Shown piece by piece: positions 3,296 through 50,877 of a stretch of DNA of 64,000 nt. A program made the position numbers and the translations under genes. Positions within the stretch are counted from its first letter, which is position 1. Every line of letters begins with the position of its first letter. Source of the DNA: a virus. The stretch covers positions 45,608 to 109,607 of IMG/VR virus record IMGVR_UViG_3300022538_000472. One strand, 5' to 3'. The notes under the pieces are model-generated. The model was not told the origin of the DNA, searched no databases, and saw only the letters and a program-made list of their open reading frames with translations.

Positions 3296-4152
3296 GTTCT
3301 CCTCCTACTCAACAGGCTATGCGCTGGCACAGGTAGCACTGGCTCTGGCACACGAGTCACAATAGTTACCTGCGGCGGCACGTATTTAGACCTTGGTGTA
3401 CGCCTGGAAACTGGCATAGGCCTATCTATCTTTGGCGACTGCTTGATTGCCTCTCGTAACTTCACTTCTTTTACCTTCTTTGGTCTAGGTTCTACCTTTG
3501 GCCTTCGCGGACTCGCATGAGGCAAGAGTCGCCAATCATTGGGAGCAATCTCTGCCAGTTCAAACTCCTGTGCCGCCTTTCGGAACCAATCCCTGCCACA
3601 CTCCTCAAATAACCTACCACGACCCAACTGCTGCGTCTCTGCTACAATCTCGTCGAGCCACGCAAAAGACGCGCCGCTATCCCGCACTGCCTTCAGGAAG
3701 TGCCAGTCTCCAGCAGCAGACTCGCCAAATGCCTCTATGTGCTCTAGCCATACCTGGCGCTTCACGATATAGCATAGACAATTCGTGGAGGTCAGTGCCA
3801 GCCGCTCAGGGCAATTCCAGACGAATGGCTTGGGCAGGATGTGAGGCGAGAACTGAGGGCGTCGGGACTTGACCATAATCACGTCAGGGTCTGTCTCTGC
3901 ACTGCATCTGATTTTAGCGACGAAGCCTTTGTCCTCCAGTCTAGTGTCGTCGTCCAGGATGTACACATAATCACCACTGACTCTATTCTTGTTCTGCGCA
4001 AGACTGGCATTGGCTCTTGGTACTCCAGCCTGGTCATAGTCTACGATGAATATTTGTTCTACATCCTGGTCAGTCTGGGATAGCACCGACTCAATATTGG
4101 ACGTGAGCATGCGGGGGCGCTTGCAGCAGCGAGTTACTATCGTGAGAAACAT
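3292..4152 (-). CDS. GT2-like glycosyltransferase with basic C-terminal tail
   Basis: I place the start at 4152 (MFLTIVTRC), where AAGGAG lies 8 nt upstream; the longer frame to 4206 lacks an SD and overlaps the upstream gene more. The GT-A domain shows IVTRCCKRPRML, IESVLSQ and the metal-binding YILDDDTRLED. The last 75 residues are rich in Pro, Lys and Arg and look disordered. About 286 aa. The acceptor is unknown; related in style to the GT2 genes at 4137 and 14232. Confidence 0.75.
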   Translation of the reverse strand: MFLTIVTRCCKRPRMLTSNIESVLSQTDQDVEQIFIVDYDQAGVPRANASLAQNKNRVSGDYVYILDDDTRLEDKGFVAKIRCSAETDPDVIMVKSRRPQFSPHILPKPFVWNCPERLALTSTNCLCYIVKRQVWLEHIEAFGESAAGDWHFLKAVRDSGASFAWLDEIVAETQQLGRGRLFEECGRDWFRKAAQEFELAEIAPNDWRLLPHASPRRPKVEPRPKKVKEVKLREAIKQSPKIDRPMPVSRRTPRSKYVPPQVTIVTRVPEPVLPVPAHSLLSRRRT

Positions 4153-21534: not shown

Positions 21535-21562
21535 TTGACATTGTTTCAAACCGTGCTATACT
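21535..21562 (+). promoter_or_regulatory. sigma70 promoter of the TIGR-Tas-like operon
   Basis: TTGACA (21535-21540), 16 bp, TATACT (21557-21562). Transcription would start near 21569, exactly where the structured leader begins. Confidence 0.75.
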
Positions 21563-21711: not shown

Positions 21712-22260
21712 ATGGCAAAGAAGGAACTGACCTTAGTAATACCCATTGGAGACTGGGAAGACGAATACCTGCGTGATGAAGTAGATGTTTCCTCAGAAGA
21801 TGCTATCATTACAATACGTCTTCAGACAGACATCGGCCCAGCGCAGTTAGGCCGTTCCCTTGTCGTAGCACGTGAACGCGATGAAACGAAGTCTAACATC
21901 ATCCCACAGAACAAGCCACTGCTGAACATAGCCGCCTCGTTGAGCGCAAGGAGGATATTGACTAAGCGGCAGGAGCCGGTAGAGATGCCAAACGGGAAGG
22001 TCTATGATGTTCCCTCATTCGTTGGCCCCATGAGCACATCTGATGATGAACCTAATGGGATAAAACCATTCGTCAGGTTGCACGATCCAGAAGCAATAGC
22101 ACTGGCGCTGGGGTATCTGGATCGTGCAGTGTCAGGGCATATCTGGAAGCGGCTGCTCGTGTTGGCGGCAAACGATGAGGACATCGTGACGGCGGCGCAG
22201 AAGGTGGTTGATAACGTTTGGGAGATGGTGGAGCGGTTGACGGAGCCAGAGGAGGAGTGA
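21712..22260 (+). CDS. Hypothetical protein upstream of the repeat array
   Basis: 182 aa from MAKKELTLVIPIGD, with GGAGGT 4 nt upstream; the longer frame from 21589 runs through the leader helices and is rejected. Acidic. ALALGYLDRAVSGHIWKRLLVLAAND is a likely helical pair near the C-terminus. No family recognised. Its TGA stop is the first three bases of the first array repeat, so gene and array are fused and must share a transcript. It may be an accessory gene of the system, or a simple passenger. Confidence 0.75.
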   Translation: MAKKELTLVIPIGDWEDEYLRDEVDVSSEDAIITIRLQTDIGPAQLGRSLVVARERDETKSNIIPQNKPLLNIAASLSARRILTKRQEPVEMPNGKVYDVPSFVGPMSTSDDEPNGIKPFVRLHDPEAIALALGYLDRAVSGHIWKRLLVLAANDEDIVTAAQKVVDNVWEMVERLTEPEEE

Positions 22261-22921
22261 AATCCAGTTTTAGTGTACGAGCCATGTTGCTCATGAAACC
22301 CACGACCGCTGTGCGAGCCAGACCTTCAATGAAACCCAGGCAAGGTATGCGAGCTAACTCAGTGATGAAACCCAGGGAGGTGGTGCGAGCCACGATCCTA
22401 GTGAAACCCACTTGAACGGTGCGAGCCACGCGCGTGATGAAATCCAGTAGCCCCGTGCGAGCCAACCAGGTGATGAAATCCAGCGTGGTGGTGCGAGCCA
22501 TCTAATTGGTGAAATCCAGAATCGCGGTGCGAGCCAGTGCGCATGTGAAACCCAGATGCAAGGTGCGAGCCAACCAGAGCATGAAATCCAGACGGCCAAT
22601 GCGAGCCAGTTGACCGGTGAAACCCACGGTGCTAGTGCAAACCAGTCGTGTAATGAAACCCAGATAGAACATGAGCCACTTGACGGGTGAAATCCAGCTG
22701 AGCGATGCGAGTCAATCTTCGGGTGAAACCCACGAATTCTGTACGAGCCAATTAGCATATGAAACCCAACACAACCATGCGAGCCAACGGCGCAGTAAAA
22801 CTCACATCACCCGTGCGAGCCATCTTGACTATGAAGCCCAGCGGCGCAGTGCAAGCCATACACGATGTGAAACCCACGATGCAAGTGCGAGCCATTGCTG
22901 TGGTGAAACCCAACCGATGAG
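22258..22921 (+). repeat. TIGR-type array: 18 units of 36 bp, two repeats and two 9-nt spacers each
   Basis: The unit is TGAAAYCCA, 9 variable nt, TGCGAGCCA, 9 variable nt. It repeats 18 times in perfect 36-bp register from 22258 to 22903, with one 2-bp deletion in the repeat at 22672-22678, then a final TGAAACCCA and a decayed end. All 37 spacers have exactly 9 nt, differ from each other, and every one ends in A or G, giving RTGA/RTGC at each repeat start, reminiscent of box C of C/D snoRNAs. This is the published architecture of tandem interspaced guide RNA arrays, whose processed guides are 36 nt with two 9-nt spacers. It is not CRISPR (spacers far too short). Next gene: Tas-like protein. 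Confidence 0.88.
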
Positions 22922-22946
22922 TACGTAATTCAAGAAAAGGAGAGAC

Positions 22947-23912
22947 GTGAAAACCAAAGACAAGAGACCCGACCCAAAGCCACGGAAACACCCGCAACTG
23001 TGGCAGTCCTATCTATGGTGGGATGAACTGGTGCAGATGCGCAAGCGCCATACCCTGCGCATCAGCAGCATCGAGGCGGGCAAGTCCAATCTCGACGCTC
23101 AGTTTGAACGAGACATGATGGAGGGACATGCAAAAGTAACCCACATCAGCCGTGGTAAGACCACTGAGACAACCATTGGCGTCCCCCTTGACGCTGCCAT
23201 AGCCGGAACAAAGGAGATAATGATTGGCTACGGCAAGGACGTGGGGCCAGTATGGGACTGGCTCGCCAGCATCAAGGGCCTGGGCGCTGGCGGACTGGCG
23301 GCGCAACTGCTGGCGCAGTTCGACGACGTGAGCAAGTTTGACACCGTAAGCAAGTTCTGGCGGTTCGCTGGACAGGCAGTGTATTTTTACTGGCGAAACG
23401 GCCAGGGCACAATAGCAGCGCCCAGAGACGGGTATAAGTCACGCAAGGCCAAAAAGGGAGAACGGGCCATGAACGGAACCATCTGTGGGCCTGGGATGGG
23501 GAAACTTGTCGAACCTGGCATGGTCGTGAGAGAATACATTGTGCCAACCCCTGAGCCAGATTGGAAACTAGTGAAGCACAGAGATATAAAACTGAGCGGC
23601 TGGAACAGTCCATACAATGCCCGTCTCAAATCAATCTGCTATCTCATAGTCGAGCAGTTCATCAAACAGCAAACGCCAGTCTACGTTGACATCTACTACG
23701 CCGAAAAGGAGCGGCAACGGCATGACCATCCTGAGCCCATCAAGGAAAACGGCAAATGGAAGTTCAACGACGGCCACCTACACCATCGGGCAATGCGCAA
23801 GACGGCTAAAATCTTCTTGCAGCACCTGTGGGTGAAGTGGCGTGAGGCTGAAGGATTGCCAGTATCAAAGCCCTACGTTGAGGCAGTCCTGGGGCATACA
23901 AACATCATTTAG
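22947..23912 (+). CDS. tasA-like: Tas-like protein (IS110 C-terminal/Nop-like core, no nuclease domain)
   Basis: 321 aa from GTG with AAGGAGAG upstream. Residues 20-60 are a charged helical stretch; 105-145 (WLASIKGLGAGGLAAQLLAQ and SKFWRFAGQAV) match the helix-hairpin-helix Transposase_20 core of IS110 proteins; 221-305 form a helical domain with LHHRAMRKTAKIFLQHLWVKW. There is no DEDD/RuvC or HNH catalytic block, so it is not a complete IS110 transposase. Tas proteins of TIGR systems share this Nop/IS110-related core, and nuclease-free forms are called TasA. Position 26 bp after the array supports that call. It would bind the 36-nt guides and target DNA without cutting it, perhaps silencing or recruiting a partner. 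Assignment rests on motif and context. Confidence 0.75.
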   Translation: MKTKDKRPDPKPRKHPQLWQSYLWWDELVQMRKRHTLRISSIEAGKSNLDAQFERDMMEGHAKVTHISRGKTTETTIGVPLDAAIAGTKEIMIGYGKDVGPVWDWLASIKGLGAGGLAAQLLAQFDDVSKFDTVSKFWRFAGQAVYFYWRNGQGTIAAPRDGYKSRKAKKGERAMNGTICGPGMGKLVEPGMVVREYIVPTPEPDWKLVKHRDIKLSGWNSPYNARLKSICYLIVEQFIKQQTPVYVDIYYAEKERQRHDHPEPIKENGKWKFNDGHLHHRAMRKTAKIFLQHLWVKWREAEGLPVSKPYVEAVLGHTNII

Positions 23913-24006: not shown

Positions 24007-24038
24007 AAGGGCCAACTCCACGTTCAGAGTTGGCCCTT
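24007..24038. terminator. Bidirectional intrinsic terminator
   Basis: AAGGGCCAACTC (24007-24018) pairs perfectly with GAGTTGGCCCTT (24027-24038), 12 bp, 8-nt loop. On the minus strand it is followed by TTTTT, so it ends the structural operon; on the plus strand CTTCTTTC follows, ending the Tas operon. Confidence 0.85.
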
Positions 24039-24086
24039 CTTTCATTCTCTGGCAGTAGTCTATTGCCAGTCTAAGTTGAGGCTGGA

Positions 24087-33046: not shown

Positions 33047-33206
33047 TGATGGACTCCTGTGTGTCCTGAGCAATTGCTCCTTGCCACGCCTCGTCAGAAA
33101 TTCCCCTCAGTTTCCGCAGCCGCTCGGAGTTGTCAAGCATCTTAGCAATGTCGGCGAGCAATTGCTTTCGCAACTTTCTTAATCTGCGCTTCTGTTTTTC
33201 ACTCAT
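33036..33206 (-). CDS. Small basic helical protein, 56 aa
   Basis: Reads MSEKQKRRLRKLRKQLLADI, then a charged helix and QDTQESISAT. It overlaps the portal stop by 4 nt and the minor head start by about 11 nt, good signs of a coupled gene. Function unknown. Confidence 0.55.
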   Translation of the reverse strand: MSEKQKRRLRKLRKQLLADIAKMLDNSERLRKLRGISDEAWQGAIAQDTQESISAT

Positions 33207-36200
33207 AATTCAATCGATGGATCAAAGGTGCTACCGCAGTTCCCGCAGACACAGAGACCCTTGTGGTCGCGATACTGTTTCGCGCCATGCTCGTTGCAAA
33301 CTGGGCAGGGGAAGGCGACTATCCCAAAGGTGTGTTGTGCTTGCTTTGATTCTACAGTGGCGGCGTCAATGTCCTCATCGGAGATGGGAACTTCATCCTT
33401 GGTAAATGGTTTCAATGGCTCCCCCCTTGGCTCAACCTTCTGCTTCTCTCCACGTCCCAAGAGTGCACCCATCGCACCCTGAACCATTGCCTTGACTCTC
33501 CCGCTCAGGCCATGCTCAATAGTCTCACTCTCACCACTGGATTCTGGCACTCTACTGATTGCCTTCTCCTCTGGCTCAGGCGCTTCCCCCCCAGGCCCCA
33601 CCTTACTCTGTGGCCTCGTCTCCGTCCACGCACCACCGCCGACCTTATCCACCAGATCCCTGGCATCTTCGTCGTAGCTGACAGCATCTGCATCTTTGTC
33701 AGTGGCAGATTTCCGCTTATCAGCAGCGCGCTCCAACTTCTTGCTGGCTTGCTCGCGTTTTGCTTCAGCTTGCTCTCGCTTCTTTTCAGCGCGTTCACGA
33801 GCCTTGGTAGCATTTGCTTCTGCCTTCTCAATGTCCACTGAATCAGCACCAGCGGCCACCAGCTCGGCTACCTCAGCATCGAATCCATCAGCCTCAGTGT
33901 CGAACTCATCTGCCTCTGTCTCATAGCCATCAGCCTTCGTCTCATAAGCATCCGCATCGGCGTCCAACTTCTCAGCATCGGCGCGATAGTCGGCAGCCTT
34001 ATCCCGTGCATCGCTGGCCTTTTCCCGCGTAACTTCCGCCTTGTCCAATGTACCGACAACCCTCTCCCGCGCCTGGCTCATCTCATCCAGCACTCTGCGA
34101 GTATCACCGCTATCAGCGGCGCTCATCACTGCCCTACCATCTGTGGTCAGTCGCGGGTTCCCTTCAGGATCCAACTCTACCAGGCCAGAAGCCGCCAGCC
34201 TCTGCGCTGACGCGGCGTCAAGACTCGCGCCATCCCTGAATGTCATCAACCCATTGAAGTCCTCTTCCCTAACTCCCCTTGAACCAAGCGCCTGCGCTGC
34301 CTCGCTGTGGTTGCTCTCTAATTCCAGCATCCGCTCAATGTCCCGTGTCGCTGCTTCCGTCTCGCGTTGTAGTTCACGCTCCTGCTTCTCGCGTTCGCGC
34401 GCGGCTTCCTTCTCCAGTCGCTTGCGTTCACGCTCGGCCTCTCGTTCGCGCTTCTTGGCAGCACTGACTGCCTGCTTGGCCTGACGGTCGCGTTCCTTTC
34501 CCTCAGCACGGGTCTTCTTCTCAGCATCCTTGTCAATGGCGGCTCGTGCTTTGTCCACGTCACCGCTATTGCCTGCCGAGAGCATAGAGCGACCGAGCGT
34601 GGTCATGATCGGCTGGCCATCCATTCCTAACTTGACAAACCCACGTCCAACGAGGTCACTCACATCACCTGCATCCCCACCAGACCTCAACACAGTCAAC
34701 GCATCCAGTGACCCTGGAGGCATTCCAAGTGCCTCGGCCACTGCCGCAGTGTTGGCCGCCTTCGCCGCCGCTGCTGCGCTAGGTTTACTCTCTGCTGCTT
34801 CTCCCGCGCGTGCACGACGCGCCAGCATCCCTGCTCTTAATTGCTCCTTGAGTTGCGCGACGTTGACGAACCTGCCACCAGCACCGCGTGCTAGTTCTCC
34901 GGTGATGACCTCGCCAACCGGCACACTGAAGTCAAAGCCCGACGCGAAGCCTTTCTCTCCCTCGGCTACTTCCTCTTCTCCCTCCTGTACCTCGGCAGTG
35001 ACTTCGGCCTGCATCTCCTGCTCAGTCTCACGTTGAGCTTCTGGCGCATAAATGGTCTTCAGCTTACCCAACGCCGCCAGTGCTTCACGTGCTTTCTGTC
35101 GTTCACCCGCAGTGCGTCCACTGCCAATGATGTTTTGCGCATTGAGCGCGGCGAGGTCAACTTCCTCCAGTATGATGAAGGGGTCATTGGCGTGCAACGC
35201 CAGCGGCTCCCTGACTCCCAGGTCAAGCAAGCGCAGGTAGATGTCATCTACGCTGGTAAACAGCGAGAGTACATCTGAGCCATCCGGCAGCCGCCCATCA
35301 TCCAGTTCCAGTTGATTGAACTGAGACTGAGATAAGTCACCGGACTCCAATGCTTGCTCACGCGCCACGCGTGAGTTGATGACGCCGTCTGCCAGTGACT
35401 TGCTGCGAGCCTCAGTTCGCACCTTGCTGATGTCAGCCTTCATGCGATCCTGCTCATCGTCCTGGAAGTCAAACACTAACTTAAGATGAGGCGGCAGGAA
35501 CTTGCCAGCCGAATGCCGGGAGCCTCGTGGATCACCGCCGAGCAGCATCGTGATGATGCTCAGCACCTTGCCAATGCCACCGCCCAAGCCCGCAATGTGT
35601 TGATACATCGCATCGGCCTTGGTTGCGCCCGAAGTTGCAGCCGGCCATATCCACCTAATCGGAACCCCAAACGCCAGCGCAATAGCGAACATCCCCAGAC
35701 GCGTGGAGGTCTCCTCATCAAACCCATCAGGTAAACCAGAGAGACTAAGCAGAGACAGGTCAGCGTCAGTTGCGATGTCACCAATGATGGGGAGTTTGGC
35801 GAGACGCGCAAGACCCTGGTTGTCCATGATCTCATCAGCTACCTCTAAGGAACCGGTCACTACGCTGGTGTGGATGCCTTTGCCAAGCAGTATCCCACGC
35901 ACAGGTCGGGAGCCCAGCTTTTCTTGCTTGAAAATCGAGATGTCCTGGAGGTTCTGGCTGACATTGATTGCTCTCGACAAAGCGCAGAACCCTACACCCC
36001 TCATCTCCACCCGCGACGACGGCATGTCAGACGCAAACGCTACACGAGTTCGGTGCAGTTTGGAGGGTTTGCCACTGGTGTCGCGGTAGAGTACCGGAAA
36101 CTCAATGTCGCCAGTCCTAACACAATGGAACGAGTCGAGGCACGAGAGACCTTGCGCTGGTCCAACTATAGGGCCATCCTGCTTGCCCTCGCCGATGACC

Positions 36201-37780
36201 TCCCAGAATCCACCGTTGTCGCTGCAATTATGAACAACAGTCTGAGCGGCAACAAATGTTTCTGTTCCCTCAACAGATAGATTGTAAGTCGTCTCTGCGG
36301 GTCTCTTGTCGTAGTAAGAACTCCCAGTCCTGAAATCACGCTGCTTGCTAACTGCAACCCGATCCCAGTACACTCTCGCTGACCCCAACTCCCAAAACCC
36401 AAGGTCATAATCCGGTGCATCCTCAGTGACTTTATAACGCATAGATGGAGGAACAAAAGAACCAATCAGTTCCATCAACTTACGGGAACCTTCAGCCCCA
36501 ATTGCTATCACAGGATAGGACTTTCCTCCATCCCTGGGACGGCGGTTGATTCGCATCTTGCTTGGAATCTCCTGAGATGTAAGCAGATCGGCCAACCATT
36601 GAACATCAGACTCTGAAAAACTGTTCGTGTAAAGCGTAACTTGAGGAATCAAATTGCCGGTTGTAGTTTCAACTTGATGTAGACTTCCATCATCAAGATA
36701 CCAGGCTGCTAGCATGAGAGATGAGAAATTTTCCTTCACCAGGTCACGAGGCACTATCTTCTTGCCATCAGGGTAAAATGCCTCATGCCAACTATTCAAG
36801 CCAAGTGAAGCGCGAGAGTTTATTCCAATAACTTCACTTTCGTTCAATCCAATCTTGGACACTCTATGATTCCGCCCTGTCCAGTGAAAACCTTGGAGCG
36901 CCAAGAGTTTCAGGTCTAACCATTTTTCCTGCTTCACACTATGCCCAAACCTAAGCATTGCCCGCTTGCGCACAAAGGACATGCTCGCATCACCTAATAA
37001 TGTACCCACCAAGAGTTGGGACTGCAACTCATTGGGAACAGGATCACCAGTTGCCACCATCATATCTGACTCAACTTCCCGTGCGGGTAGCCAACCGTTC
37101 TCAGTGAGAATAGGATGATCCTCTGTTACAAAGATTCCCCCTCTTTGGTCCCGACTATGAAAGGATGCTTCCTCAAGTGAAAGCCACCACCACCTGCGAT
37201 TGCCAAGAGGATTCTTGAACCATTCAGTGACTTGACGTTCTACGAGATAACCTTCTTTGGTCACCGAAAGTACAGGGCCAGTATCTTTATCCTTGACCAT
37301 CTTCGCAATGGCCTTAGTCTGCCCTCTTCGCTCTCCCCCCAAATGAATCCTGGTGGGACCTGCAAGACACCAGTAATCTGCAAGCCATTTGCAGATGGTA
37401 TCTGTCCACGCTTGACCAAACTCTGATTCCTCAGTTAGCCTGATAGTGAAGTCCTCAGCCTGACGCAAGTGGGCTTTGACAGTGGAGTCACGAGGGAGCA
37501 CTCGGAGGGGAACTGTGGCAACCCGTGCAGCGAGCAATGCCAGCGCGCCAGAGAGGTGATCAGACTTCTTCCAGAAGGCATCCAGGTCGGCATCGCGACG
37601 CGGCGACCACCAGGGAGCGATAAGTTGTCCGGCCTGGGTGAGATAGGTCAGTAACCCACCCGAACCCCAACTGCCCTCCTGGGTTGCGCGGGCTTGCACA
37701 CTGAGTTCACGTGCCGTCTTGACGCTTTTCTGGTCGGATGTGCTTTTGGGGGAGCGGGTTCGTTTGCGGGTTCGGGCCAT
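33203..37780 (-). CDS. Portal protein interrupted by an intein, with a long coiled-coil tail
   Basis: 1525 aa precursor. Residues 1-137 and 519 onward are the portal (GPTR-free body with DADLDAFWKKSDHLSGALAL and AFGVPIRWIWPAATSGATKADAMYQ, typical of phage portals that bind the head-tail ring). Residues 138-518 are an intein. After about residue 880 come 500 residues of Glu/Lys/Ala coiled coil with repeated YETKADGYETEADEF-like units, ending in a zinc ribbon (CPVCNEHG ... CVCGNC). Portals are normally 400-600 aa, so the tail is exceptional; it could act as an internal scaffold. Mature length about 1144 aa. Confidence 0.8.
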   Translation of the reverse strand: MARTRKRTRSPKSTSDQKSVKTARELSVQARATQEGSWGSGGLLTYLTQAGQLIAPWWSPRRDADLDAFWKKSDHLSGALALLAARVATVPLRVLPRDSTVKAHLRQAEDFTIRLTEESEFGQAWTDTICKWLADYWCLAGPTRIHLGGERRGQTKAIAKMVKDKDTGPVLSVTKEGYLVERQVTEWFKNPLGNRRWWWLSLEEASFHSRDQRGGIFVTEDHPILTENGWLPAREVESDMMVATGDPVPNELQSQLLVGTLLGDASMSFVRKRAMLRFGHSVKQEKWLDLKLLALQGFHWTGRNHRVSKIGLNESEVIGINSRASLGLNSWHEAFYPDGKKIVPRDLVKENFSSLMLAAWYLDDGSLHQVETTTGNLIPQVTLYTNSFSESDVQWLADLLTSQEIPSKMRINRRPRDGGKSYPVIAIGAEGSRKLMELIGSFVPPSMRYKVTEDAPDYDLGFWELGSARVYWDRVAVSKQRDFRTGSSYYDKRPAETTYNLSVEGTETFVAAQTVVHNCSDNGGFWEVIGEGKQDGPIVGPAQGLSCLDSFHCVRTGDIEFPVLYRDTSGKPSKLHRTRVAFASDMPSSRVEMRGVGFCALSRAINVSQNLQDISIFKQEKLGSRPVRGILLGKGIHTSVVTGSLEVADEIMDNQGLARLAKLPIIGDIATDADLSLLSLSGLPDGFDEETSTRLGMFAIALAFGVPIRWIWPAATSGATKADAMYQHIAGLGGGIGKVLSIITMLLGGDPRGSRHSAGKFLPPHLKLVFDFQDDEQDRMKADISKVRTEARSKSLADGVINSRVAREQALESGDLSQSQFNQLELDDGRLPDGSDVLSLFTSVDDIYLRLLDLGVREPLALHANDPFIILEEVDLAALNAQNIIGSGRTAGERQKAREALAALGKLKTIYAPEAQRETEQEMQAEVTAEVQEGEEEVAEGEKGFASGFDFSVPVGEVITGELARGAGGRFVNVAQLKEQLRAGMLARRARAGEAAESKPSAAAAAKAANTAAVAEALGMPPGSLDALTVLRSGGDAGDVSDLVGRGFVKLGMDGQPIMTTLGRSMLSAGNSGDVDKARAAIDKDAEKKTRAEGKERDRQAKQAVSAAKKREREAERERKRLEKEAAREREKQERELQRETEAATRDIERMLELESNHSEAAQALGSRGVREEDFNGLMTFRDGASLDAASAQRLAASGLVELDPEGNPRLTTDGRAVMSAADSGDTRRVLDEMSQARERVVGTLDKAEVTREKASDARDKAADYRADAEKLDADADAYETKADGYETEADEFDTEADGFDAEVAELVAAGADSVDIEKAEANATKARERAEKKREQAEAKREQASKKLERAADKRKSATDKDADAVSYDEDARDLVDKVGGGAWTETRPQSKVGPGGEAPEPEEKAISRVPESSGESETIEHGLSGRVKAMVQGAMGALLGRGEKQKVEPRGEPLKPFTKDEVPISDEDIDAATVESKQAQHTFGIVAFPCPVCNEHGAKQYRDHKGLCVCGNCGSTFDPSIEL
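36227..37369 (-). other. Intein with LAGLIDADG endonuclease domain
   Basis: Residues 138-518 of the portal precursor (381 aa). It starts at Cys138 (CLAGPTRIHLGG), has block B with the T-x-x-H motif (VTEDHPILTENGW, residues 218-230), LAGLIDADG helices LVGTLLGDA (257-265) and AAWYLDDG (358-365), block F/G GTETFVAAQTVVHN ending at His517-Asn518, and Cys519 as the first C-extein residue. All splicing nucleophiles are present, so it should be active. The endonuclease resembles the free-standing one at 702-1514. Confidence 0.92.
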
Positions 37781-42160: not shown

Positions 42161-42314
42161 CAGAGAAAAGGAGGAGCGCAAGAGATGCAGATGCGCCTCG
42201 CACCGCTCCTGGGTGCGGCTATTATGTTAAGTTAGACAGCCAAGTGAGATGAGGTCTCAGCAAGCCACTTGGTAACTGAGTAGCCCTCCCAGCTGCCTTG
42301 CACTTGGTACAGTA

Positions 42315-42401
42315 GCGGGGCCAGGAATCGAACCTGGGTCTCCGGATTAGACCTGGTGTCTCTGGATTAGTGCCCGGCTTGACGCCACTCCACTACCCCG
42401 C
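42315..42401 (-). tRNA. tRNA-like sequence, class II length, anticodon unresolved
   Basis: 87 nt. GCGGGG at the 5' end pairs with CCCCGC at the 3' end; a normal T-arm, CCAGG-TTCGATT-CCTGG, sits directly before the 3' strand, and TA follows the 5' strand as at positions 8-9. The middle contains a 20-nt near-tandem duplication (CTAATCCAGAGACACCAGGT and CTAATCCGGAGACCCAGGTT) that spoils a clear anticodon arm. Either a decayed tRNA or another tRNA-like RNA. Confidence 0.45.
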
Positions 42402-42419
42402 ATTATGTCGATGATTACG

Positions 42420-43445: not shown

Positions 43446-44042
43446 TCAAAGCAGCGGTCCATCATCGTCTGACTGCTGCAGGAAGCCAATATCTCTGAGA
43501 TAGCGCAGACTAGAAGTCCTGCTCGGCAGCCAGAGCCGCCACCGCTTACGTCTCTGTCTCAATGGTTCGCGCTTGATGTGTGCTGTGGCGGCAGAGAACT
43601 TACCGCCAGTGATAGAACCCGCGAGAGCCAGGGTCATCACTACGACGGCATTGGAATCAAAGACTTCCGATTTGAGCGATTCGTAGTAGATGTGTTCAGC
43701 GTGAGCCAGACGGTCGCGGAGTGTCACCGTGATGATGCGCGGGACGAGTTTCTTGCGAATGACCTTGCGGCGATTCCCGGCTTTAGTGTAGAAATAGCCG
43801 CCAGGCTTGATCCACAGCCAGCGCAGGTCATATTGACGCTCTAGTAGCAAGCAGAGTGCTGTCCATGCCGTGGGGCTGAGAATGGACTGCATGAAGGCTT
43901 CCCAAGCCCCGCGTAGTCCCTCGCCACTGCGTCTCCATGCCTCTGCGCCGGGGTGGAGGCGCTTGACCTCAGCATAGCCAGACCAGGCTTGTCTGAATAG
44001 CCAGGGACCGGGAGTGCGGAGGCGGCGTAAGCATTCCTTCAT
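43446..44042 (-). CDS. Hypothetical basic protein
   Basis: 198 aa, Arg- and Trp-rich, with RKVIRKKLVPRIITVTLRDRL and REPLRQRRKRWRLWLPSR. No family recognised. The high Arg content suggests nucleic-acid contact, as inference only. Confidence 0.5.
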   Translation of the reverse strand: MKECLRRLRTPGPWLFRQAWSGYAEVKRLHPGAEAWRRSGEGLRGAWEAFMQSILSPTAWTALCLLLERQYDLRWLWIKPGGYFYTKAGNRRKVIRKKLVPRIITVTLRDRLAHAEHIYYESLKSEVFDSNAVVVMTLALAGSITGGKFSAATAHIKREPLRQRRKRWRLWLPSRTSSLRYLRDIGFLQQSDDDGPLL

Positions 44043-44060
44043 TGCTCACCCATTAGAGAA

Positions 44061-44444
44061 TTACTCACCCAATATATCCACAGGAACCCAGACGCCATCA
44101 ATCGGGATTGCTTGCTTTTCTAGCATTCGTTCTTTGAAGCTCTCCAGCATCTCGTCGTTCAATGATAATGACAACAATGGCGGCATTCTCCTCTTTCTGG
44201 CAAAGAATCGCCTCAGCCAAAACCAAATATCCTTATCACGAGTCTTCACAACAGGGCCTTCCAGGTAAAATCGGGGCCAGTAATCGATCAGTCTCTCAAA
44301 GTCAGAACGTGATAGAACCAAATCGGGTTCCAAGCTCTGTCGGCGTGCATATCTAACAGCGAACATCAGCGACTCCCCCAGTCTTGGAGAGAGAACATCG
44401 ACATCAGTGATTACGATCTGCCGAGCAACCTCAACCAATTTCAT
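44061..44444 (-). CDS. Hypothetical protein, paralogue of 20340-20711
   Basis: 127 aa. FERLIDYWPRFYLEGPVVK, a basic helix (FWLRRFFARKRR) and KQAIPIDGVWVPVDI match the protein at 20340. Function unknown. Confidence 0.65.
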   Translation of the reverse strand: MKLVEVARQIVITDVDVLSPRLGESLMFAVRYARRQSLEPDLVLSRSDFERLIDYWPRFYLEGPVVKTRDKDIWFWLRRFFARKRRMPPLLSLSLNDEMLESFKERMLEKQAIPIDGVWVPVDILGE

Positions 44445-44746
44445 CCGTGTGTCAACTCCTCGATCAACTTCCGCATTCGTTTCAGCGTCGCGCGAAGGTG
44501 AAACTGTGCTTCTTCTGGCTCGACGCCAGTCAGGATGAGCAGTAGTCGTTCAAATGCTCGGAACATCCGACACAACCACGTCACCGTATAGAACCCAAGC
44601 ACCATCAGCACCGCCGACATCGCGGCCACGATCCAGGTGGGATCAGTGTAATGACCTGGCACATCGGGAACTCTGGCCATGAGCAGCACGGCAATGCAAG
44701 CAGTGGCGCTGAGGATGAGCATCATGATGATGTCAGAAGCCATCAT
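44441..44746 (-). CDS. Three-span membrane protein
   Basis: About 101 aa from ATGATG (MMASDIIMMLILS) with AAAGGAAAG upstream. Hydrophobic helices MMLILSATACIAVLLMA and TWIVAAMSAVLMVLGFYTVTWL, then a basic helical tail. Overlaps the next gene by 4 nt. Confidence 0.5.
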   Translation of the reverse strand: MMASDIIMMLILSATACIAVLLMARVPDVPGHYTDPTWIVAAMSAVLMVLGFYTVTWLCRMFRAFERLLLILTGVEPEEAQFHLRATLKRMRKLIEELTHG

Positions 44747-44793
44747 TCTTTCCTTTTGCGTACCGCAACTAGCCCAACTCAACGATACTATTA

Positions 44794-45177
44794 TTAGGCA
44801 ACGATCAGGCTTACCTCAATTTCTTCTCTGTGCATTGCCTCAATTAAAAGTCGCACAAATGCCCTGCGGACATGATACTTAATGGGGCCAGCAGTTGATG
44901 CTAATTGCATAATTTGACGATCGCCTTCACCTCGGTTGATTATTGAGATAGGATGTCCATAGGTCTCAAAGGACTCTGCATAATTATCGGCATAGGTATC
45001 CAAACTGCAACACCCTTTTGAGCAAGCTTCTGGCGCGCCAAGTCTGCGGGCCTCGGCAATTATAACTCGCGGCTGGTCGCAGATTTCACGCACCTTCTGT
45101 TTAAGGATTTCCCACATATCATCGTAGTCAATGCACGCTACGCCGTTGTATCCCAATGTGATATGATAACCTGTCAT
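44794..45177 (-). CDS. Hypothetical protein with Cys motif
   Basis: 127 aa. PEACSKGCCSLDTY near the middle could bind metal. C-terminal half is alpha/beta. No family recognised. Confidence 0.5.
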   Translation of the reverse strand: MTGYHITLGYNGVACIDYDDMWEILKQKVREICDQPRVIIAEARRLGAPEACSKGCCSLDTYADNYAESFETYGHPISIINRGEGDRQIMQLASTAGPIKYHVRRAFVRLLIEAMHREEIEVSLIVA

Positions 45178-45211
45178 TCTAAACCGCCTCCATCTGTGTG
45201 CCAGGATAGCC

Positions 45212-45517
45212 TTAACTCATATAGATTCTCAGCGCCTCAGTCCCTGGCGGCAAGTCGGCAATCTTAATAATCATGCCACCACTATGTCTGGCATCGCCCG
45301 CACCCCCAACACTGATAGCTATCATCTCAGTGTCGGGTGATATAGTAATTTTCTCATCCGGGAAAAAGTTGTTGTTACCCAAGGCTCCCTGTAGATGTTT
45401 GACTACTGCCGCTGGCGGCTTGATTCCCTTGGAAACAAGACTGTTGTAAATAGCCACGTATTCCATGTCGGCCTCACTGATTCTACGATGTGCCTCCACG
45501 CAAATACTGACCGACAT
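45212..45517 (-). CDS. Hypothetical protein
   Basis: 101 aa: helical first half (SISVCVEAH-type start and EYVAIYNSLVSKG), then beta strands (KITISPDTEMIAISVGGAG). No family recognised. Adjacent to 45518 without a gap. Confidence 0.5.
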   Translation of the reverse strand: MSVSICVEAHRRISEADMEYVAIYNSLVSKGIKPPAAVVKHLQGALGNNNFFPDEKITISPDTEMIAISVGGAGDARHSGGMIIKIADLPPGTEALRIYMS

Positions 45518-45742
45518 TTAGTTCTCCTTCACAGACTTCGCTTCCCGCAACTCGATCTGCAATAGCGCCTCGTCAATCCAGGTGAGATGCTTGCGCACAT
45601 CACGTTGAATTGCCCGTATCCCTACCATGCTGTGTTCCTGATAACACCTATGCGAGACCATATTCGCGACACCATCAAGCCACGTCTCAGCCTCTTGCCA
45701 GAATTCCTCGGTAGTTATTTTTTTCACATTGGCAGCAGTCAT
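45518..45742 (-). CDS. Small helical protein
   Basis: 74 aa from MTAANVKKITTEEF, with GGGAGG 7 nt upstream. Charged helices throughout. Starts 4 nt inside the previous gene. Function unknown. Confidence 0.5.
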   Translation of the reverse strand: MTAANVKKITTEEFWQEAETWLDGVANMVSHRCYQEHSMVGIRAIQRDVRKHLTWIDEALLQIELREAKSVKEN

Positions 45743-46188
45743 TTGCACACCTCCCATCTCTCACGCGGCACACGCTTGACCCAGTATTCTGAGCCAGGCT
45801 TCTCGTAGTAACCCGTCGTTATCTCATCGCCGATCTGTAGTATAGCGCCAACAATGCCGGTCACTGGGTCTACGCAAAAGTACGCGAACTCCTGCTCAGA
45901 CCCACCGCAGAACTTGGCAACCTCAGCGCATTTGCCTTGCAGGAGATTTGCGTATATTTGCTCAGTGTCTCCGTGATGCTTGGCGGCATGTGCACTGATA
46001 ATCAGATTGTTCGGCACAGGTACCTGGTCAGGTCGCAGCCAGTCTATTGCAGCGGCCTGGTGAACTGTAGCACCGGTGGCTGGCAAAGTGATACTGGCGC
46101 TGCTGAGCATAGTGAGAGCAAAAGCACTTATGATCAACGTCATAACGAACAACAGTACCATAGTCCCTAATGAACTTGTCCTCGTCAT
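45739..46188 (-). CDS. Signal-anchored hypothetical protein
   Basis: 149 aa. MTRTSSLGTMVLLFVMTLII begins a signal anchor; the exported part has two Cys pairs (GKCAEVAKFCGG, AYFCVDP). Shares its N-terminal tag MTRTS-LG with the next gene. Confidence 0.5.
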   Translation of the reverse strand: MTRTSSLGTMVLLFVMTLIISAFALTMLSSASITLPATGATVHQAAAIDWLRPDQVPVPNNLIISAHAAKHHGDTEQIYANLLQGKCAEVAKFCGGSEQEFAYFCVDPVTGIVGAILQIGDEITTGYYEKPGSEYWVKRVPRERWEVCK

Positions 46189-46189
46189 T

Positions 46190-46579
46190 CTATTTACCTC
46201 CTATATGGATATCGGGATAATGTTCCTCGAACCAATCCTTCAATTCCGTGATTTTTTCCCCGTCGCTTAACTTGAACGCCTCAACGTACTCCCTCAATCT
46301 TTTGTGGTATTCCGTGGCAGGATCATATACATCTATTTGCTGCTGTGCGACTGAATCACCTTCGTATTCTCTCCGTAACTCGTCATATCTGGCAGTAGGT
46401 ATGCCTATCCTATTTAACTCGCCATGATGCTCTGGCTTTAAGCCAAACACAACAGTTGGCACTGGATATGGCAGTTCCAAATCTTGGACTTGACCAAGCA
46501 TCACCAGCGCGATGACGCCAAACAAAATGAGCATCCCGAATAACATAATGGGCAATCCTAAATTGCTGGTTCTAGTCAT
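46190..46579 (-). CDS. Signal-anchored hypothetical protein
   Basis: About 129 aa from MTRTSNLGLPIMLFGMLILF; AGGAGG precedes. One N-terminal span then a charged domain (LRREYEGDSVAQQQIDVYD, KITELKDWFEEHYPD). The first eight residues and the anchor resemble 45739-46188, but the bodies differ: another shared start. Confidence 0.5.
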   Translation of the reverse strand: MTRTSNLGLPIMLFGMLILFGVIALVMLGQVQDLELPYPVPTVVFGLKPEHHGELNRIGIPTARYDELRREYEGDSVAQQQIDVYDPATEYHKRLREYVEAFKLSDGEKITELKDWFEEHYPDIHIGGK

Positions 46580-46827
46580 TATGCCGTACCTCCTGTACCT
46601 AACCATTCAAACAATCCTTTGCCACAACACGCGAGAAGAATCAGTGAGGCGTGTTCCTGTGGAGTGACTCCCGCCTGCCATTGATCACCGAGCACCTTTG
46701 CTAGATGCGCAATGTGGAAGATGCGTATCTGGTCGCCCTCGATTGCCAGATATTCACTGTGATTCTGGCAGAAGATCGTTGGACCGCCAGTCTGCTCAGG
46801 ACTCAAAAACTTTTTGTTTGTATTCAT
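46579..46827 (-). CDS. Hypothetical protein
   Basis: 82 aa from MNTNKKFLSPEQTGG; AAAGGAG stands 6 nt upstream. His/Cys residues (CQNHSEYLAI) are scattered. The longer frame to 46992 overlaps two better-supported small genes and is rejected. Confidence 0.5.
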   Translation of the reverse strand: MNTNKKFLSPEQTGGPTIFCQNHSEYLAIEGDQIRIFHIAHLAKVLGDQWQAGVTPQEHASLILLACCGKGLFEWLGTGGTA

Positions 46828-46829
46828 CC

Positions 46830-46967
46830 TCACTCCTTTATATCCATTTCCCACCCTCCGCCAGGATGAGAACGGACGTCGGTCACTCTGCCACGAAACC
46901 ATAGAGCGACTACTACCAGTGCCGCCACGACGGTTGGTGCAATCACGATGATCGTGAAGGTATCCAT
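46830..46967 (-). CDS. 45-aa single-span membrane protein
   Basis: MDTFTIIVIAPTVVAALVVV then ALWFRGRVTDVRSHPGGG and an acidic end. GAGGAG 4 nt upstream. Its ATG overlaps the previous stop (TAATG). Below common ORF cut-offs. Confidence 0.55.
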   Translation of the reverse strand: MDTFTIIVIAPTVVAALVVVALWFRGRVTDVRSHPGGGWEMDIKE

Positions 46968-47143
46968 TATGCTCCTCTCTTGAATTCTGCATCGTCTGGA
47001 TGCATTGGTGGCGGCTCGCGTCCCTCTCGCTCTTGCCTAGCAGCCTTGAAGTTGGCTATCATCACGGTCGCTAGCAGCGTCAAGCCAAAGGCGACGACGA
47101 CAGCCACGATGATGAATCCAGCTGATGTAACTATGTGTGTCAT
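46967..47143 (-). CDS. 58-aa single-span membrane protein
   Basis: MTHIVTSAGFIIVAVVVAFG, then LTLLATVMIANFKAARQERE and a Pro-rich tail. GGAGG 7 nt upstream. Coupled to the next small membrane gene by TAATG. Confidence 0.55.
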   Translation of the reverse strand: MTHIVTSAGFIIVAVVVAFGLTLLATVMIANFKAARQEREGREPPPMHPDDAEFKRGA

Positions 47144-47174
47144 TTTACTGACCTCCTAAAACTTAGACTTAGTG

Positions 47175-47247
47175 TCGGGGCCAAGCGGAAACCCCGCTTT
47201 CGCGAGTAAAGGAGAACGGGTATGCAAGACCCGCCGCCTGGCCCCGA
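47175..47247. other. 73-nt element with a 9-bp closing stem
   Basis: TCGGGGCCA (47175-47183) pairs with TGGCCCCGA (47239-47247). Inside are AGCGG/CCGCT (47184-47198) and CGGGT-ATGCAAG-ACCCG (47217-47233). Size and multiloop recall a tRNA, but there is no T-arm. It fills the gap between two minus-strand genes; orientation and role are open. Confidence 0.5.
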
Positions 47248-47255
47248 ACCACATC

Positions 47256-47576
47256 TCAGAGAACTATTTTCCCCTTCCGCGTTTCACCACAGAACCGACA
47301 AATGCTATGTGGCACTCCCCAAGCATCTGTTCGCCATGCTTTCCATTGGTGCGGGCATTCATCCAGAACAACTAATTCTGTAATCCTGCTACACTCTGGG
47401 CAGTGGCTTTCCACAATGTCCTCCAATGGAATACTTATTCCCTCCGGTAGTGAGGCATCGTCACTTACTCGTAGTTTGCCACGCCGGGGTTCCAAAGTAG
47501 CGCCGATATATAGCCTCACAGTTGCATCAAGAGAATAGGTATTGCAGTGTGGACAGCAGAATAGTGTAATAGACAT
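47256..47576 (-). CDS. Multi-zinc-ribbon protein
   Basis: 106 aa with three Cys pairs: CCPHC near residue 8, CPEC near 60 and CRFC near 95, the last preceded by CPHQW. Two zinc ribbons are likely. Phage transcription modulators often look like this, but no family is assigned. Confidence 0.55.
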   Translation of the reverse strand: MSITLFCCPHCNTYSLDATVRLYIGATLEPRRGKLRVSDDASLPEGISIPLEDIVESHCPECSRITELVVLDECPHQWKAWRTDAWGVPHSICRFCGETRKGKIVL

Positions 47577-47579
47577 CCT

Positions 47580-47948
47580 CTAGTCCTCCAAAAGTGCCAA
47601 ATATCTCTGTGCTATGTCCTCACGCTCGGCCTCGTCCTGCGGATACCGCGACAGAATTGCCACCGGCTCAGCAGCCCGCAGCCAGACAGTGCGAAATTGG
47701 CCGTCAGCGAGAGATGCGAGGACTTCTGTTTTGAGTCCACCATACTGCTGGACATTTTGCATCGTGCGACAGTCCTCGGCGGCGAGTTCGGCGATCCTGA
47801 TGGACCACGGCCAGGGGAGTAACAGTGCCGCTGACTTGCGTGCTGACGTGAGAACGGCAAGACAGCCGCGCGCCATTTCCAAGATGACCGCCGTGTCTAC
47901 GCCGCCTATGGCGGAGAGATTGATGCTTTTCAATTTGCTCGTTTCCAT
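47580..47948 (-). CDS. First gene of the 43-48 kb operon, hypothetical
   Basis: About 122 aa from METSKLKSINLSAIGG. The predicted transcript starts near 47962, which would leave the upstream ATG (47960) almost leaderless; GGGGGA before 47948 favours the second ATG. Helical, soluble. No family recognised. Confidence 0.6.
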   Translation of the reverse strand: METSKLKSINLSAIGGVDTAVILEMARGCLAVLTSARKSAALLLPWPWSIRIAELAAEDCRTMQNVQQYGGLKTEVLASLADGQFRTVWLRAAEPVAILSRYPQDEAEREDIAQRYLALLED

Positions 47949-47968
47949 CTGTTCCCCCATTTGTACCG

Positions 47969-47997
47969 ATTATAGCACACTTTAGCAGATGTGTCAA
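47969..47997 (-). promoter_or_regulatory. Exact-consensus sigma70 promoter, leftward
   Basis: TTGACA (47997-47992), 17 bp, TATAAT (47974-47969) on the minus strand. Divides the leftward operon from the rightward one. Confidence 0.88.
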
Positions 47998-48145
47998 CGA
48001 GAGGCAATTCTTGAAAATCAAACAAGTCAATAGATTCTCACCACTTTTCATCCCCAAGAACCTTGCAAAAGTGCGCAAAAACCCTGCAAAATCACGTCGG
48101 AAACCTTGCAGAAACAACCATCCGTGACCAATTTGCCCAAAAGAC

Positions 48146-48174
48146 TTGACTTCCGGTAAGTTATATGATATTAT
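48146..48174 (+). promoter_or_regulatory. sigma70 promoter, rightward
   Basis: TTGACT (48146-48151), 17 bp, TATTAT (48169-48174). The 200 nt that follow have no ORF and carry GGAA motifs at short intervals (GAAGGAAACG, AAAGGAAC, CCGGAAGG, CAGGAAGG, TCGGAAGG). I see no clear fold there. Confidence 0.75.
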
Positions 48175-48377
48175 TATAGCGTAGTAAACGAAGGAAACGA
48201 ACCAAAGGAACATTAACAACCGAAACCCCGGAAGGCGAACAGGAAGGCACAATCGGAAGGCCAAATAAAGACCGGCCACCGAGGCGGTAAGTCGCAGAGA
48301 CTGAATAGTAACTGGTAAACTGAAAGGGGAGACGGCGAAATAGCCCAGGCGCTGGAGGAGGCGGGTGGGCAGGGAAC

Positions 48378-48406
48378 TTGCTTTATTTCCAATCATGCAG
48401 TATAAT
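48378..48406 (+). promoter_or_regulatory. sigma70 promoter of the pseudoknot RNA
   Basis: TTGCTT (48378-48383), 17 bp, TATAAT (48401-48406). The predicted start, near 48413, is the first base of helix P1. Confidence 0.75.
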
Positions 48407-48412
48407 AAGACC

Positions 48413-48530
48413 GTCTAGCCAAACGCTCAATAGGGCGTTTTCAATTGCATACTTGGAGGTAAAGCTCCCCTCTTGTGTAGGCTTAGCGCCCTACGTTTGG
48501 CTAGACACCAACGTACACAAGCGGGGAGTT
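48413..48530 (+). ncRNA. Pseudoknotted non-coding RNA
   Basis: P1: GTCTAGCCAAACG (48413-48425) with CGTTTGGCTAGAC (48494-48506), 13 bp perfect. P2 continues it: TAGGGCG (48431-48437) with CGCCCTA (48487-48493). P3: 48465-48479 with 48514-48528, CTCCCC and CTTGTGTA paired to GGGGAG and TACACAAG, 14 of 15. P3's 5' strand is in the P1/P2 loop and its 3' strand outside, so the RNA is pseudoknotted. GGAG/CTCC inside the loop can form a rival hairpin. No ORF to 48692. Function unknown. Confidence 0.75.
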
Positions 48531-48691
48531 TTGCGTAAAAAGCGAGGTTTTCAATGGCACTAAAACAATGACAAGCCCGCATAGGAACCGAACGAAACTC
48601 GATTGAGCAGCAGGGAAACGAAATAGGAACTGGCAATGGTTGGGTCGGTTAAATCTGAATGAGCAAGAGAGAAACCCTAAGGAGGAGTGAA

Positions 48692-48817
48692 ATGTTAAAG
48701 TGTAAACTTTGTGGTGAATGGGCAGTTCGCACCCTCAAACGGGTGTGGTGTAAGGTGACCAAACGGTACGTTACCGTTGTCGTGTACAGGTGCGTCAAGT
48801 GTGGTGAGGAGGCGTGA
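48692..48817 (+). CDS. 41-aa zinc-ribbon protein
   Basis: MLKCKLCGEWAVRTLKRVWC ... YRCVKCGEEA; two Cys pairs (CKLC, CVKC) make a compact zinc ribbon. AAGGAGGAG 5 nt upstream. First gene of the rightward early operon. Confidence 0.65.
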   Translation: MLKCKLCGEWAVRTLKRVWCKVTKRYVTVVVYRCVKCGEEA

Positions 48818-48818
48818 A

Positions 48819-49076
48819 ATGACATGTCCTTGCTGTGGCGGAAAGATGGTACAAGAAACAAGGAGTAATAAAATGTCAAAAGGTACAGTAGTCATCAAGG
48901 AAACAATGGAAGCAGGATTGACGAAGTTCAAGGCTACCTGGCCTAGCGGCAAGGTTTTTGAAAAGTACGTTGATATGGGCGATGACGTGAATGAGCGAAG
49001 GCGTCAAGAGGACTTCGCCGAAAGCAGGGGTTACACCGTCGAGTGGGACGAGGAAGGCTTGGTCTTTGGAGACTAA
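48819..49076 (+). CDS. Small protein with N-terminal CxxC
   Basis: 85 aa from MTCPCCGGKMVQET, with GGAGG upstream; an internal ATG (MSKGTVVIKE) also has an AAGGAG and could give a shorter form. Acidic C-terminus. Start overlaps the previous stop region by adjacency (TGAAATG). Function unknown. Confidence 0.6.
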   Translation: MTCPCCGGKMVQETRSNKMSKGTVVIKETMEAGLTKFKATWPSGKVFEKYVDMGDDVNERRRQEDFAESRGYTVEWDEEGLVFGD

Positions 49077-49080
49077 TATC

Positions 49081-49745
49081 TCCCAGGGGGCGCGACCTGG
49101 ACAAAAACGCGTCGGCAGCAAGATGATTAGCAAGGGGGCTGGTAAAATCCAGCACGCAGGCAAATGTGAGCGCCTGCGGGGAACTTGCGCCGGAGCCGTG
49201 AGGCAAACGGGGAACGCCACCGCGAGTACTCGTGGCGGGCTGAGGAGGCCGGGAAGGGGGAACCGGCATTGCTAATCATCGGAACGAAAACGCGCAGGCA
49301 GCGGCTCTTTGACAGATAGATGACAGATTGGTGAGGTCCAACCGGTAGACGTTCTGGCCAAACTCATCCCGCTTTAGGCCAAGCCACGGGAGGCCTGGGA
49401 TTGGCGCATACCGCCTAGACAGGGCCTGGTTGCGGCAGATTACGAAGTCGCAATTTGAGCACCGCAGGAATGGACGCGCTGAAACCCAAGCCGGAATGAA
49501 CGTGAAGCCTGGGAGTAACGCCCCAGCGTATGGGTAGGAAGTGGTAGCGGAAGGCAACGCAGTCATCTATCTGTCAAAGAGTCGCGCAGGCAGCGGGCTT
49601 CGGCCCCTGCTGGCCGCTGGCCCAACTGGCTCACGCTTATCTTGGCGTCCATCGGTTGTCCGGGACGCACGGACGTGCCGGAGTAATGCTCGGCGAATAA
49701 CACCGACCGGGTCGCCGCCGACTGGTGGCCGGTGGATGGCAAGAT
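49081..49745 (+). ncRNA. Large structured non-coding RNA or MITE-like insertion
   Basis: 665 nt without a gene. Domain 1 is closed by GATGATTAGCAA (49122-49133) and TTGCTAATCATC (49269-49280). Domain 2 is closed by a perfect 20-bp pair, CTCTTTGACAGATAGATGAC (49305-49324) with 49562-49581. Copies of ACGCG-(T)C-GGCAGC-type sequence separate the domains (49107-49119, 49289-49302, 49583-49596); the last two share 14 nt exactly. Inner hairpins include GCTGG/CCAGC, GCAGGC/GCCTGC, CGCCAC/GTGGCG and CTGGG/CCCAG. Size and modular folding recall the large phage RNAs GOLLD and ROOL, though no sequence motif confirms either. Domain 2 with its flanking 14-nt repeat also fits a small inverted-repeat element. 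Confidence 0.7.
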
Positions 49746-49782
49746 GCGCATGAGCATCTACTTACTCAAAAAGGAGAAAAAG

Positions 49783-49968
49783 ATGTTATTCGTTCAATGT
49801 GATATAGTACATCCTGAAAGCGGCGAGGTCATTGCCGAGCCAGGCAAAGCGCTCAATGTATCATCTCCGCGAGCGCAGCATGTGCTGGCTGTGTGTGAGG
49901 AATACAGTCAATTCTATTCTATTTGTCAGGACGATGATAGCGACATGATTATCATAAAGCCAGTTTGA
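49783..49968 (+). CDS. Small acidic hypothetical protein
   Basis: 61 aa from MLFVQCDIVHPESG; AAAAAGGAG upstream. Upstream in-frame ATGs lie in the structured RNA. Function unknown. Confidence 0.5.
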   Translation: MLFVQCDIVHPESGEVIAEPGKALNVSSPRAQHVLAVCEEYSQFYSICQDDDSDMIIIKPV

Positions 49969-50016
49969 TCAGCACGGCCCATGCGACCGCGCCAGCGCAG
50001 AATAAGGAGAAGAGTA

Positions 50017-50313
50017 ATGAGATACAAATTTGAAGGGAAACATAAGAGCGCCATCCACGTTATAGATAGCGTCGCAGAGAACGTGGAGCGCGTAAACAAG
50101 GGCGTGGAAGCTTTCGGGATAAAATTCCCGGCCTGCCACTGCAACGATATGGCAGATCTAATCATTATAGTACCAGATGACTGGGCTTACCAATACCTCG
50201 TCGTGCCATCGTGGTTCAAATGCACTTCGCATCCGCACTTACGTGTGGAAAGGATGCGGGGCAAGGACCACCGTATCTACAAAAAAGTATTTATCAATCA
50301 GGTAGAGAAATAG
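50017..50313 (+). CDS. Hypothetical protein
   Basis: 98 aa from MRYKFEGKHKSAIHV; AAGGAG 7 nt upstream. Preceded by the hairpin motif TGCGACCGCG-x-GCGCAGAA (49982-50002), which recurs before 50668. Function unknown. Confidence 0.5.
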   Translation: MRYKFEGKHKSAIHVIDSVAENVERVNKGVEAFGIKFPACHCNDMADLIIIVPDDWAYQYLVVPSWFKCTSHPHLRVERMRGKDHRIYKKVFINQVEK

Positions 50314-50375
50314 CCCGGTATCCTTCCCGGCAATCAGGAGTGGCCGACGGTAAACTAAGTCAAAAGGAGCAAGCA

Positions 50376-50609
50376 ATGTCTTGGATTAATAAGTTCGTAG
50401 GAGAGAAGGAATTAGATACTGACCACGTCTTTGAGGTTGAGGGCGCAAGCGGCTTCAACCTCATCCCGCTAGCGGTCGTGGTTGAATACATCACGATCGC
50501 CACCAAGCAAGAGCAGGCAGCAATCAAGAAAATGCTAATCAAGATTGACTTCGTCAACGGTGACGTGATGCACTTTTTCAATCATCTGGCGAAGGCAATA
50601 GCAATCTAG
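50376..50609 (+). CDS. Hypothetical protein
   Basis: 77 aa from MSWINKFVGEKELD; AAAAGGAG upstream. Helix (YITIATKQEQAAIKKML) between beta segments. Function unknown. Confidence 0.5.
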   Translation: MSWINKFVGEKELDTDHVFEVEGASGFNLIPLAVVVEYITIATKQEQAAIKKMLIKIDFVNGDVMHFFNHLAKAIAI

Positions 50610-50868: not shown

Positions 50869-50877
50869 AGGAGAAGA

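Follow-up and report, generated by a model that had tools for sequence, protein, structure and literature searches.

Why would a phage carry an RNA-guided protein that has no nuclease? The role of nuclease-free TIGR systems stands as an open question in the text of the 2025 discovery paper (PMC12045711), and it is raised again by a locus in a 64,000-nucleotide (nt) stretch of viral DNA, here called the window, which comprises positions 45608–109607 of the 109,607-bp IMG/VR record IMGVR_UViG_3300022538_000472. Terminase genes among the annotated window proteins mark the source virus as a tailed phage. Within the window, an array of two alternating short repeats lies between a companion gene, orf183, and a gene for a 321-amino-acid (aa) Tas protein, tasA. 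We consider it probable that the three form an autonomous TIGR-TasA cassette that binds DNA under RNA guidance without cutting it, blocking foreign DNA of the host or of rivals, with orf183 as a dedicated partner. The kind of system is already known; what is new is a TIGR-TasA variant with a clade-specific, previously undescribed companion gene.

The 321-aa protein was assigned by sequence and by fold. Its open reading frame (ORF), which starts with GTG 21 bp past the end of the array, matches the NCBIfam model NF052498 (TIGR_Tas_endo) with 125.8 bits, above the cut-off of 100; the same model is matched by 32/32 aligned relatives, nearly all of which adjoin arrays. A sequence search against the PDB returned TasR (9mty; 3.5e-24) and TasH (9e-4), and a profile built from the 32 relatives returned TasR at 4.7e-75, TasH at 1.8e-39 and the transposases IS621 and ISCro4 at about 6e-8. 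Foldseek comparison of the AlphaFold model (pLDDT 84) gave TasR (7.7e-10), TasH (5.5e-8) and IS621 (0.017), so that IS621 ranks below all Tas structures by profile and by fold. We saw no RuvC or HNH nuclease domain ahead of the core in the model or the alignments, where a coiled-coil helix begins at residue 16, and in the alignment the six closest Tas relatives are likewise nuclease-free. On the basis of sequence and model, we conclude that the protein is of the TasA type, a nuclease-free Tas. A preliminary description of this DNA had proposed a TIGR-Tas locus with a nuclease-free effector and suggested comparison by hidden Markov model and by structure; both comparisons place TasR and TasH at the top, reveal no unrelated fold and leave only a distant kinship with IS110, and the identification is borne out further by the dual-repeat array with its UG...CCA boxes. 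Relative to its closest relatives the protein has two insertions: a β-hairpin that is shorter or absent in them, and a longer stretch (aa 146–217) that is mostly low-confidence or unordered in the model, is absent from the six closest relatives and occupies the place where other Tas proteins have zinc-ribbon-like inserts.

The array is built from two 9-nt repeats, an edge repeat (TGCGAGCCA) and a loop repeat (TGAAACCCA or TGAAATCCA), which alternate with 9-nt spacers in a 36-bp period that was found independently by Tandem Repeats Finder. Between 22.2 and 22.95 kb there are 19 loop repeats (11 TGAAACCCA, 6 TGAAATCCA and 2 variants), alternating at 9-nt distances with edge repeats, of which 11 are exact copies of TGCGAGCCA and the others variants. 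Because each motif occurs only twice elsewhere in the 109.6-kb genome, counting both strands, chance does not account for the array. Array and protein lie where the preliminary description had placed them, but its details needed correction. The register that it had called strict slips once by 2 bp, at an edge repeat that lacks 2 nt (TG--AGCCA), and its 18 units become up to 19 pairs of A and B spacers when the truncated edges at both ends are counted. The first edge, ACGGAGCCA at 22240, is 5′-truncated, in register and inside the coding sequence of orf183; the last, TACG at 22922–22925, is 3′-truncated and ends the array. TIGR arrays are described as starting and ending with truncated edge repeats in the text of the discovery paper (PMC12045711). 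The orf183 stop codon, TGA, doubles as part of the first loop repeat, and the upstream gene's stop codon is likewise included in the truncated edges TAAGCCA, TAGCCA and TGAGCCA of three related contigs (G033, G042 and G045).

The repeats also carry the expected protein-binding boxes. UG (box D) and CCA (box C) are present in both TGCGAGCCA and TGAAACCCA, and the loop repeat is A-rich; in the account of TasR given by Faure et al. 2025, the tigRNA is bound through UG and CCA in both repeats, the loop repeat again being A-rich (PMC12045711). A purine precedes box D in 163/166 spacers of the window's clade versus 323/460 in other TIGR phages. The ninth spacer base thus seems to belong to a longer box, RUG, which may leave 8+8 nt as free guide.

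The companion gene sets the locus apart. The orf183 protein has no family in Pfam, PHROGs or NCBIfam, and its predicted structure is poor and gave no fold match. Five other loci of the closest Tas clade (L150, L162, L130, L164 and L142) have a homolog immediately before the array, and once Tas, array-read ORFs and spurious overlapping frames are excluded, orf183 is the only family near arrays that is common to more than four contigs. Seven rows of the Tas tree form one clade (100/100), in which orf183 occurs six times, and it occurs in no other clade. Five further members of the clade were retrieved by Tas alone, independently of orf183, and three of the five (L266, L268 and L270) also have the gene upstream. 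It is thus present in 9 of the 12 TasA loci of the clade, and none was found outside it; a further search for homologs in viral contigs returned only an already known locus. We infer that orf183 serves this TasA clade as a dedicated partner. In the main text of the discovery paper, tasParB is the only operon partner described, and orf183 is not mentioned (PMC12045711). Identity with TasParB was rejected for lack of a ParB_N match, a remote kinship being conceivable, and profile matches between orf183 and cytochrome c6 (E ~0.01) were put down to chance.

The layout of the locus points to a single unit of expression. The cassette lies on the plus strand between genes on the minus strand at either side, in the order promoter-like site, orf183, array, tasA and terminator-like hairpin (Table 1), an arrangement that suggests one plus-strand transcript spanning all three elements. 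Because the phage genes around related TIGR loci mostly differ from locus to locus, the cassette looks like an exchangeable, self-contained module. It does not stand out by GC content.

We propose that this transcript would carry orf183, the array and tasA, and that a host RNase, with TasA bound, would cleave its array part within the edge repeats, releasing 36-nt tigRNAs with two 9-nt guides each. By analogy, a TasA dimer would hold one tigRNA through the UG and CCA boxes and open a site of the form 5′-spacer A, reverse complement of spacer B-3′, where each guide would pair with a different one of the two strands. Having no nuclease, TasA would then stay on the DNA and bend it, which may block transcription or replication of host genes or of rival mobile elements, and orf183 would probably help to express the array, to process it or to carry out the effector step. 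For other TIGR systems, the text of Faure et al. reports processing to 36-nt tigRNAs, recognition of both strands and DNA bending (PMC12045711).

Table 1 Features of the TIGR-TasA cassette, in window coordinates
Feature	Position	Strand	Basis
Divergent promoter-like site	21522-21495	-	Consensus scan
Cassette promoter-like site, TTGACA-16-TATACT, TG ahead of -10	21535..21562	+	Consensus scan, 11/12 matches; putative function
orf183, 182-aa accessory protein of the clade; 3′ end holds the first array elements	21712..22260	+	Homologs just ahead of array or tasA in 8 other TasA loci
TIGR array, at most 19 units, each of edge, spacer A (9 nt), loop and spacer B (9 nt); both terminal edges truncated	22240..22925	+	Repeat analysis
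Degenerate edge repeat TGAGCCA, 2-nt deletion, register shifted by 2	22672..22678	+	Sequence
tasA, nuclease-free Tas of 321 aa with a coiled coil and an RNA-binding core of Nop/IS110 type	22947..23912	+	NF052498, PDB, AlphaFold, Foldseek
β-hairpin insertion in Tas coiled-coil region, about aa 61-79	23127..23183	+	Alignment; model strands E62-68, E71-77
Lineage-specific Tas insertion, aa 146-217	23382..23597	+	Alignments; pLDDT <50 at 164-199
Intrinsic-terminator-like hairpin closing the cassette	24007..24044	+	12-pair stem and T-rich tail

Comparison of related loci indicates how such arrays change. The DNA pattern of the repeats was found in 48 stretches of viral contigs, most with an adjacent Tas. 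Between two loci whose flanks are mostly 86–92% identical (L147 and L149), units, internal ones included, were gained or lost, and five shared units are 98.9% identical. Two other loci (L156 and L174) have almost no spacers in common, with tas genes 90% identical. Near-duplicate spacers are 18 times as frequent within arrays as between them, and one array (L150) has three identical units in tandem, which marks duplication of units as one way for arrays to grow. Arrays of related phages therefore gain, lose and swap spacers rather than keep identical ones, in keeping with the TIGR identification; the window array itself had no close homolog. In a separate pair of near-identical phages (L161:10013-10453 and L170:7756-8197, 99.9% identical over 6.5 kb), the arrays are told apart by the full replacement of a single B spacer and by a single point change; within this array, units 1 and 7 have A and B spacers each 1 base apart, as if following variants of one target.

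We then looked for what the guides might recognize, with the target order 5′-A, rc(B)-3′ (rc, reverse complement) deduced from published 8-nt 3′ overhangs and self-target searches made in three geometries with gaps of 0–2, also as 8+8 guides. In the expected order, 0/19 pairs reached 16/18 in the phage's own genome, the same as permuted pairs; no spacer pair reached 17/18 in its own contig among 26 array-bearing contigs including the window, and the 8+8-guide search in seven clade contigs was negative. Unit 16 matched a related phage at 17/18 within a DnaD-like gene; this was rejected as background, as a scan of all viral contigs finds the 18-mer in unrelated genes. One pair of another array (G042) matches a contig (G050) at 18/18 with a gap of 1, a single match against 0.1 expected, tested among many. 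TerL relatives of the phage, mostly fragments, showed no Tas, and single-protein scans found no close phage relatives.

Several observations weigh against a working cassette aimed at foreign DNA. Natural targets were not found, and matches in 2.8 Mb of TerL-related and other TIGR phages equalled the shuffled control. With 2 nt missing from one edge repeat and mutations in others, part of the units may be non-functional, and 3/12 clade members have no detectable orf183. Silencing of host or rival DNA is a possible function, with no target found in the phages searched.

A different function is conceivable for the same machinery: TIGR-TasA guides might be directed at particular sites on the host chromosome, so that the infecting phage alters which host genes are expressed instead of blocking rivals. 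We regard this as possible, though somewhat less than probable. It would be consistent with the lack of above-chance matches in the phage's own genome and in other phages, with the five near-identical units of L147 and L149, as if some targets were stable, and with a nuclease-free Tas fused to an RNA polymerase α C-terminal domain in three other phages (L013–L015; see below). The near-complete difference in spacers between L156 and L174, by contrast, implies rapid turnover, which fits an arms race better. Decay of the locus, in which the Tas nuclease was lost and the array is gathering mutations, would account for the shortened edge repeat and the mutated boxes, but seems improbable: the ORF is intact, its core conserved and most repeats undamaged, and the six closest relatives are also nuclease-free and therefore make up an established TasA clade. 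The preliminary description had raised control of the phage's own switch, and a nuclease-free effector carried by a phage would suit a regulator of lysis–lysogeny or of late genes; because no guide matches the phage genome, such self-control is disfavoured and very unlikely. That the protein is an IS110-type transposase or a remnant, with unrelated tandem repeats, is scarcely credible: its PHROGs family is named transposase, 10/32 relatives match NCBIfam IS110 and Pfam Transposase_20 gives a weak partial match below the cut-off (E 0.035), but TasR and TasH fit best by sequence and fold, no DEDD domain precedes the core, the repeats carry Tas boxes, and array and tas occur together in dozens of contigs.

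Returning to the cassette as a silencer of host or rival DNA, we suggest, more tentatively, a three-part TIGR variant: orf183 would be the dedicated partner of a nuclease-free Tas, the complex an RNA-guided DNA-binding silencer, and the clade a link between the two known array types. Two members with orf183 (L268 ~3645-3920 and L270 ~3562-3980) have stem-loop guide units in which the edge repeats are replaced; the units read CCA-N9-TGATACCCA-N9-TG, several of them between stems of 7–10 bp, and through these two loci the window's Tas clade appears to span both dual-repeat and stem-loop arrays. Locus and clade offer a testable set, with a conserved partner gene, arrays that diversify between close phages and a strong self-targeting negative.

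Related systems show further variation. In three rumen IMG/VR phages (L013:4344-5621, L014:4293-5621 and L015:4293-5621), a nuclease-free Tas carries an N-terminal RNA polymerase α C-terminal domain (PF03118, E 1e-6 to 4e-6, above the Pfam cut-off); a short array of 36-bp period (edge GCGAGCCG, loop AGTAACCCG) lies downstream or in the vicinity. Their spacers differ between the three phages, and those tested had no match in their own genomes. The fusion suggests an RNA-guided transcription regulator and hints at transcriptional control, making a transcriptional role of nuclease-free Tas plausible; this Tas is of a different clade from the window's. A 72-kb phage contig (IMGVR_UViG_3300036863_000086, G032; 44168-69091) has 11 array pieces of the same repeat type, together with ~105 spacer pairs, around a single Tas. 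In another locus (L016:4476-5681) the 36-bp array is in frame within the 3′ part of the Tas gene and could be translated as a periodic protein tail. The same repeat type occurs in contigs (L182–L187) binned to Smithella, Desulfobacterales, Planctomycetota, Euryarchaeota and Thermoplasmatota, possibly viral or proviral and from anaerobic hosts.

Elsewhere in the window, a long minus-strand run of glycosyltransferase-like, sulfotransferase-like and methyltransferase-like genes, assigned by sequence with one confirmed by Pfam, adjoins the cassette (1453-21604). Near the terminase genes, a 1525-aa ORF (33203-37780, minus strand) is interrupted by an intein-like insertion, in which a LAGLIDADG endonuclease and the junction motif VVHNC are seen. 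A tRNA-like gene with a CTA anticodon (42312-42402) borders a stretch at ~44000-53700 poor in long standard-code ORFs, in which a search for stop-codon recoding gave no clear support.

Set against known systems, the locus differs from a CRISPR array, which has a single repeat of 25–36 nt with spacers of similar size, in its two alternating 9-nt repeats, and from IS110/IS621 transposases in lacking their N-terminal DEDD RuvC-like domain. TIGR-TasR (TaTasR, 9mty) is the best sequence and fold match and shares the UG...CCA boxes; the window Tas is without its RuvC domain, and its core starts ~70 residues earlier in the chain. TIGR-TasH of Salicola phage CGphi29 (PDB 21kl, 9w04) has the same Nop core, fold and phage origin, with an HNH domain that the window Tas lacks. 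The tasParB–tasA operons in the text of Faure et al. (PMC12045711) likewise join an accessory gene to tasA, sometimes with the array between; orf183 differs in having no ParB_N match and no known fold (poor model). The TIGR-TasA of Microcystis phage Mvi-JY20 (PP438412) has an identical edge repeat (RTGCGAGCC), a close loop repeat and a nuclease-free Tas, whereas its array lies downstream of tas, its Tas is 36% identical over the C-terminal 106 aa, and it falls outside the orf183 clade. Closest in kind is TIGR-TasA as described in the text of PMC12045711 (for example, Flavonifractor FpTIGR), with a solo Nop-type Tas, a dual-repeat array with two 9-nt spacers and a 36-bp period, UG and CCA boxes, truncated edge repeats and a phage setting. 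From these the window locus departs in its array upstream of tas, overlapping a conserved orf183 that is absent from that paper's main text, in a terminator-like hairpin that follows tasA and not the array, and in its near-constant purine before box D and its lineage-specific Tas insertion.
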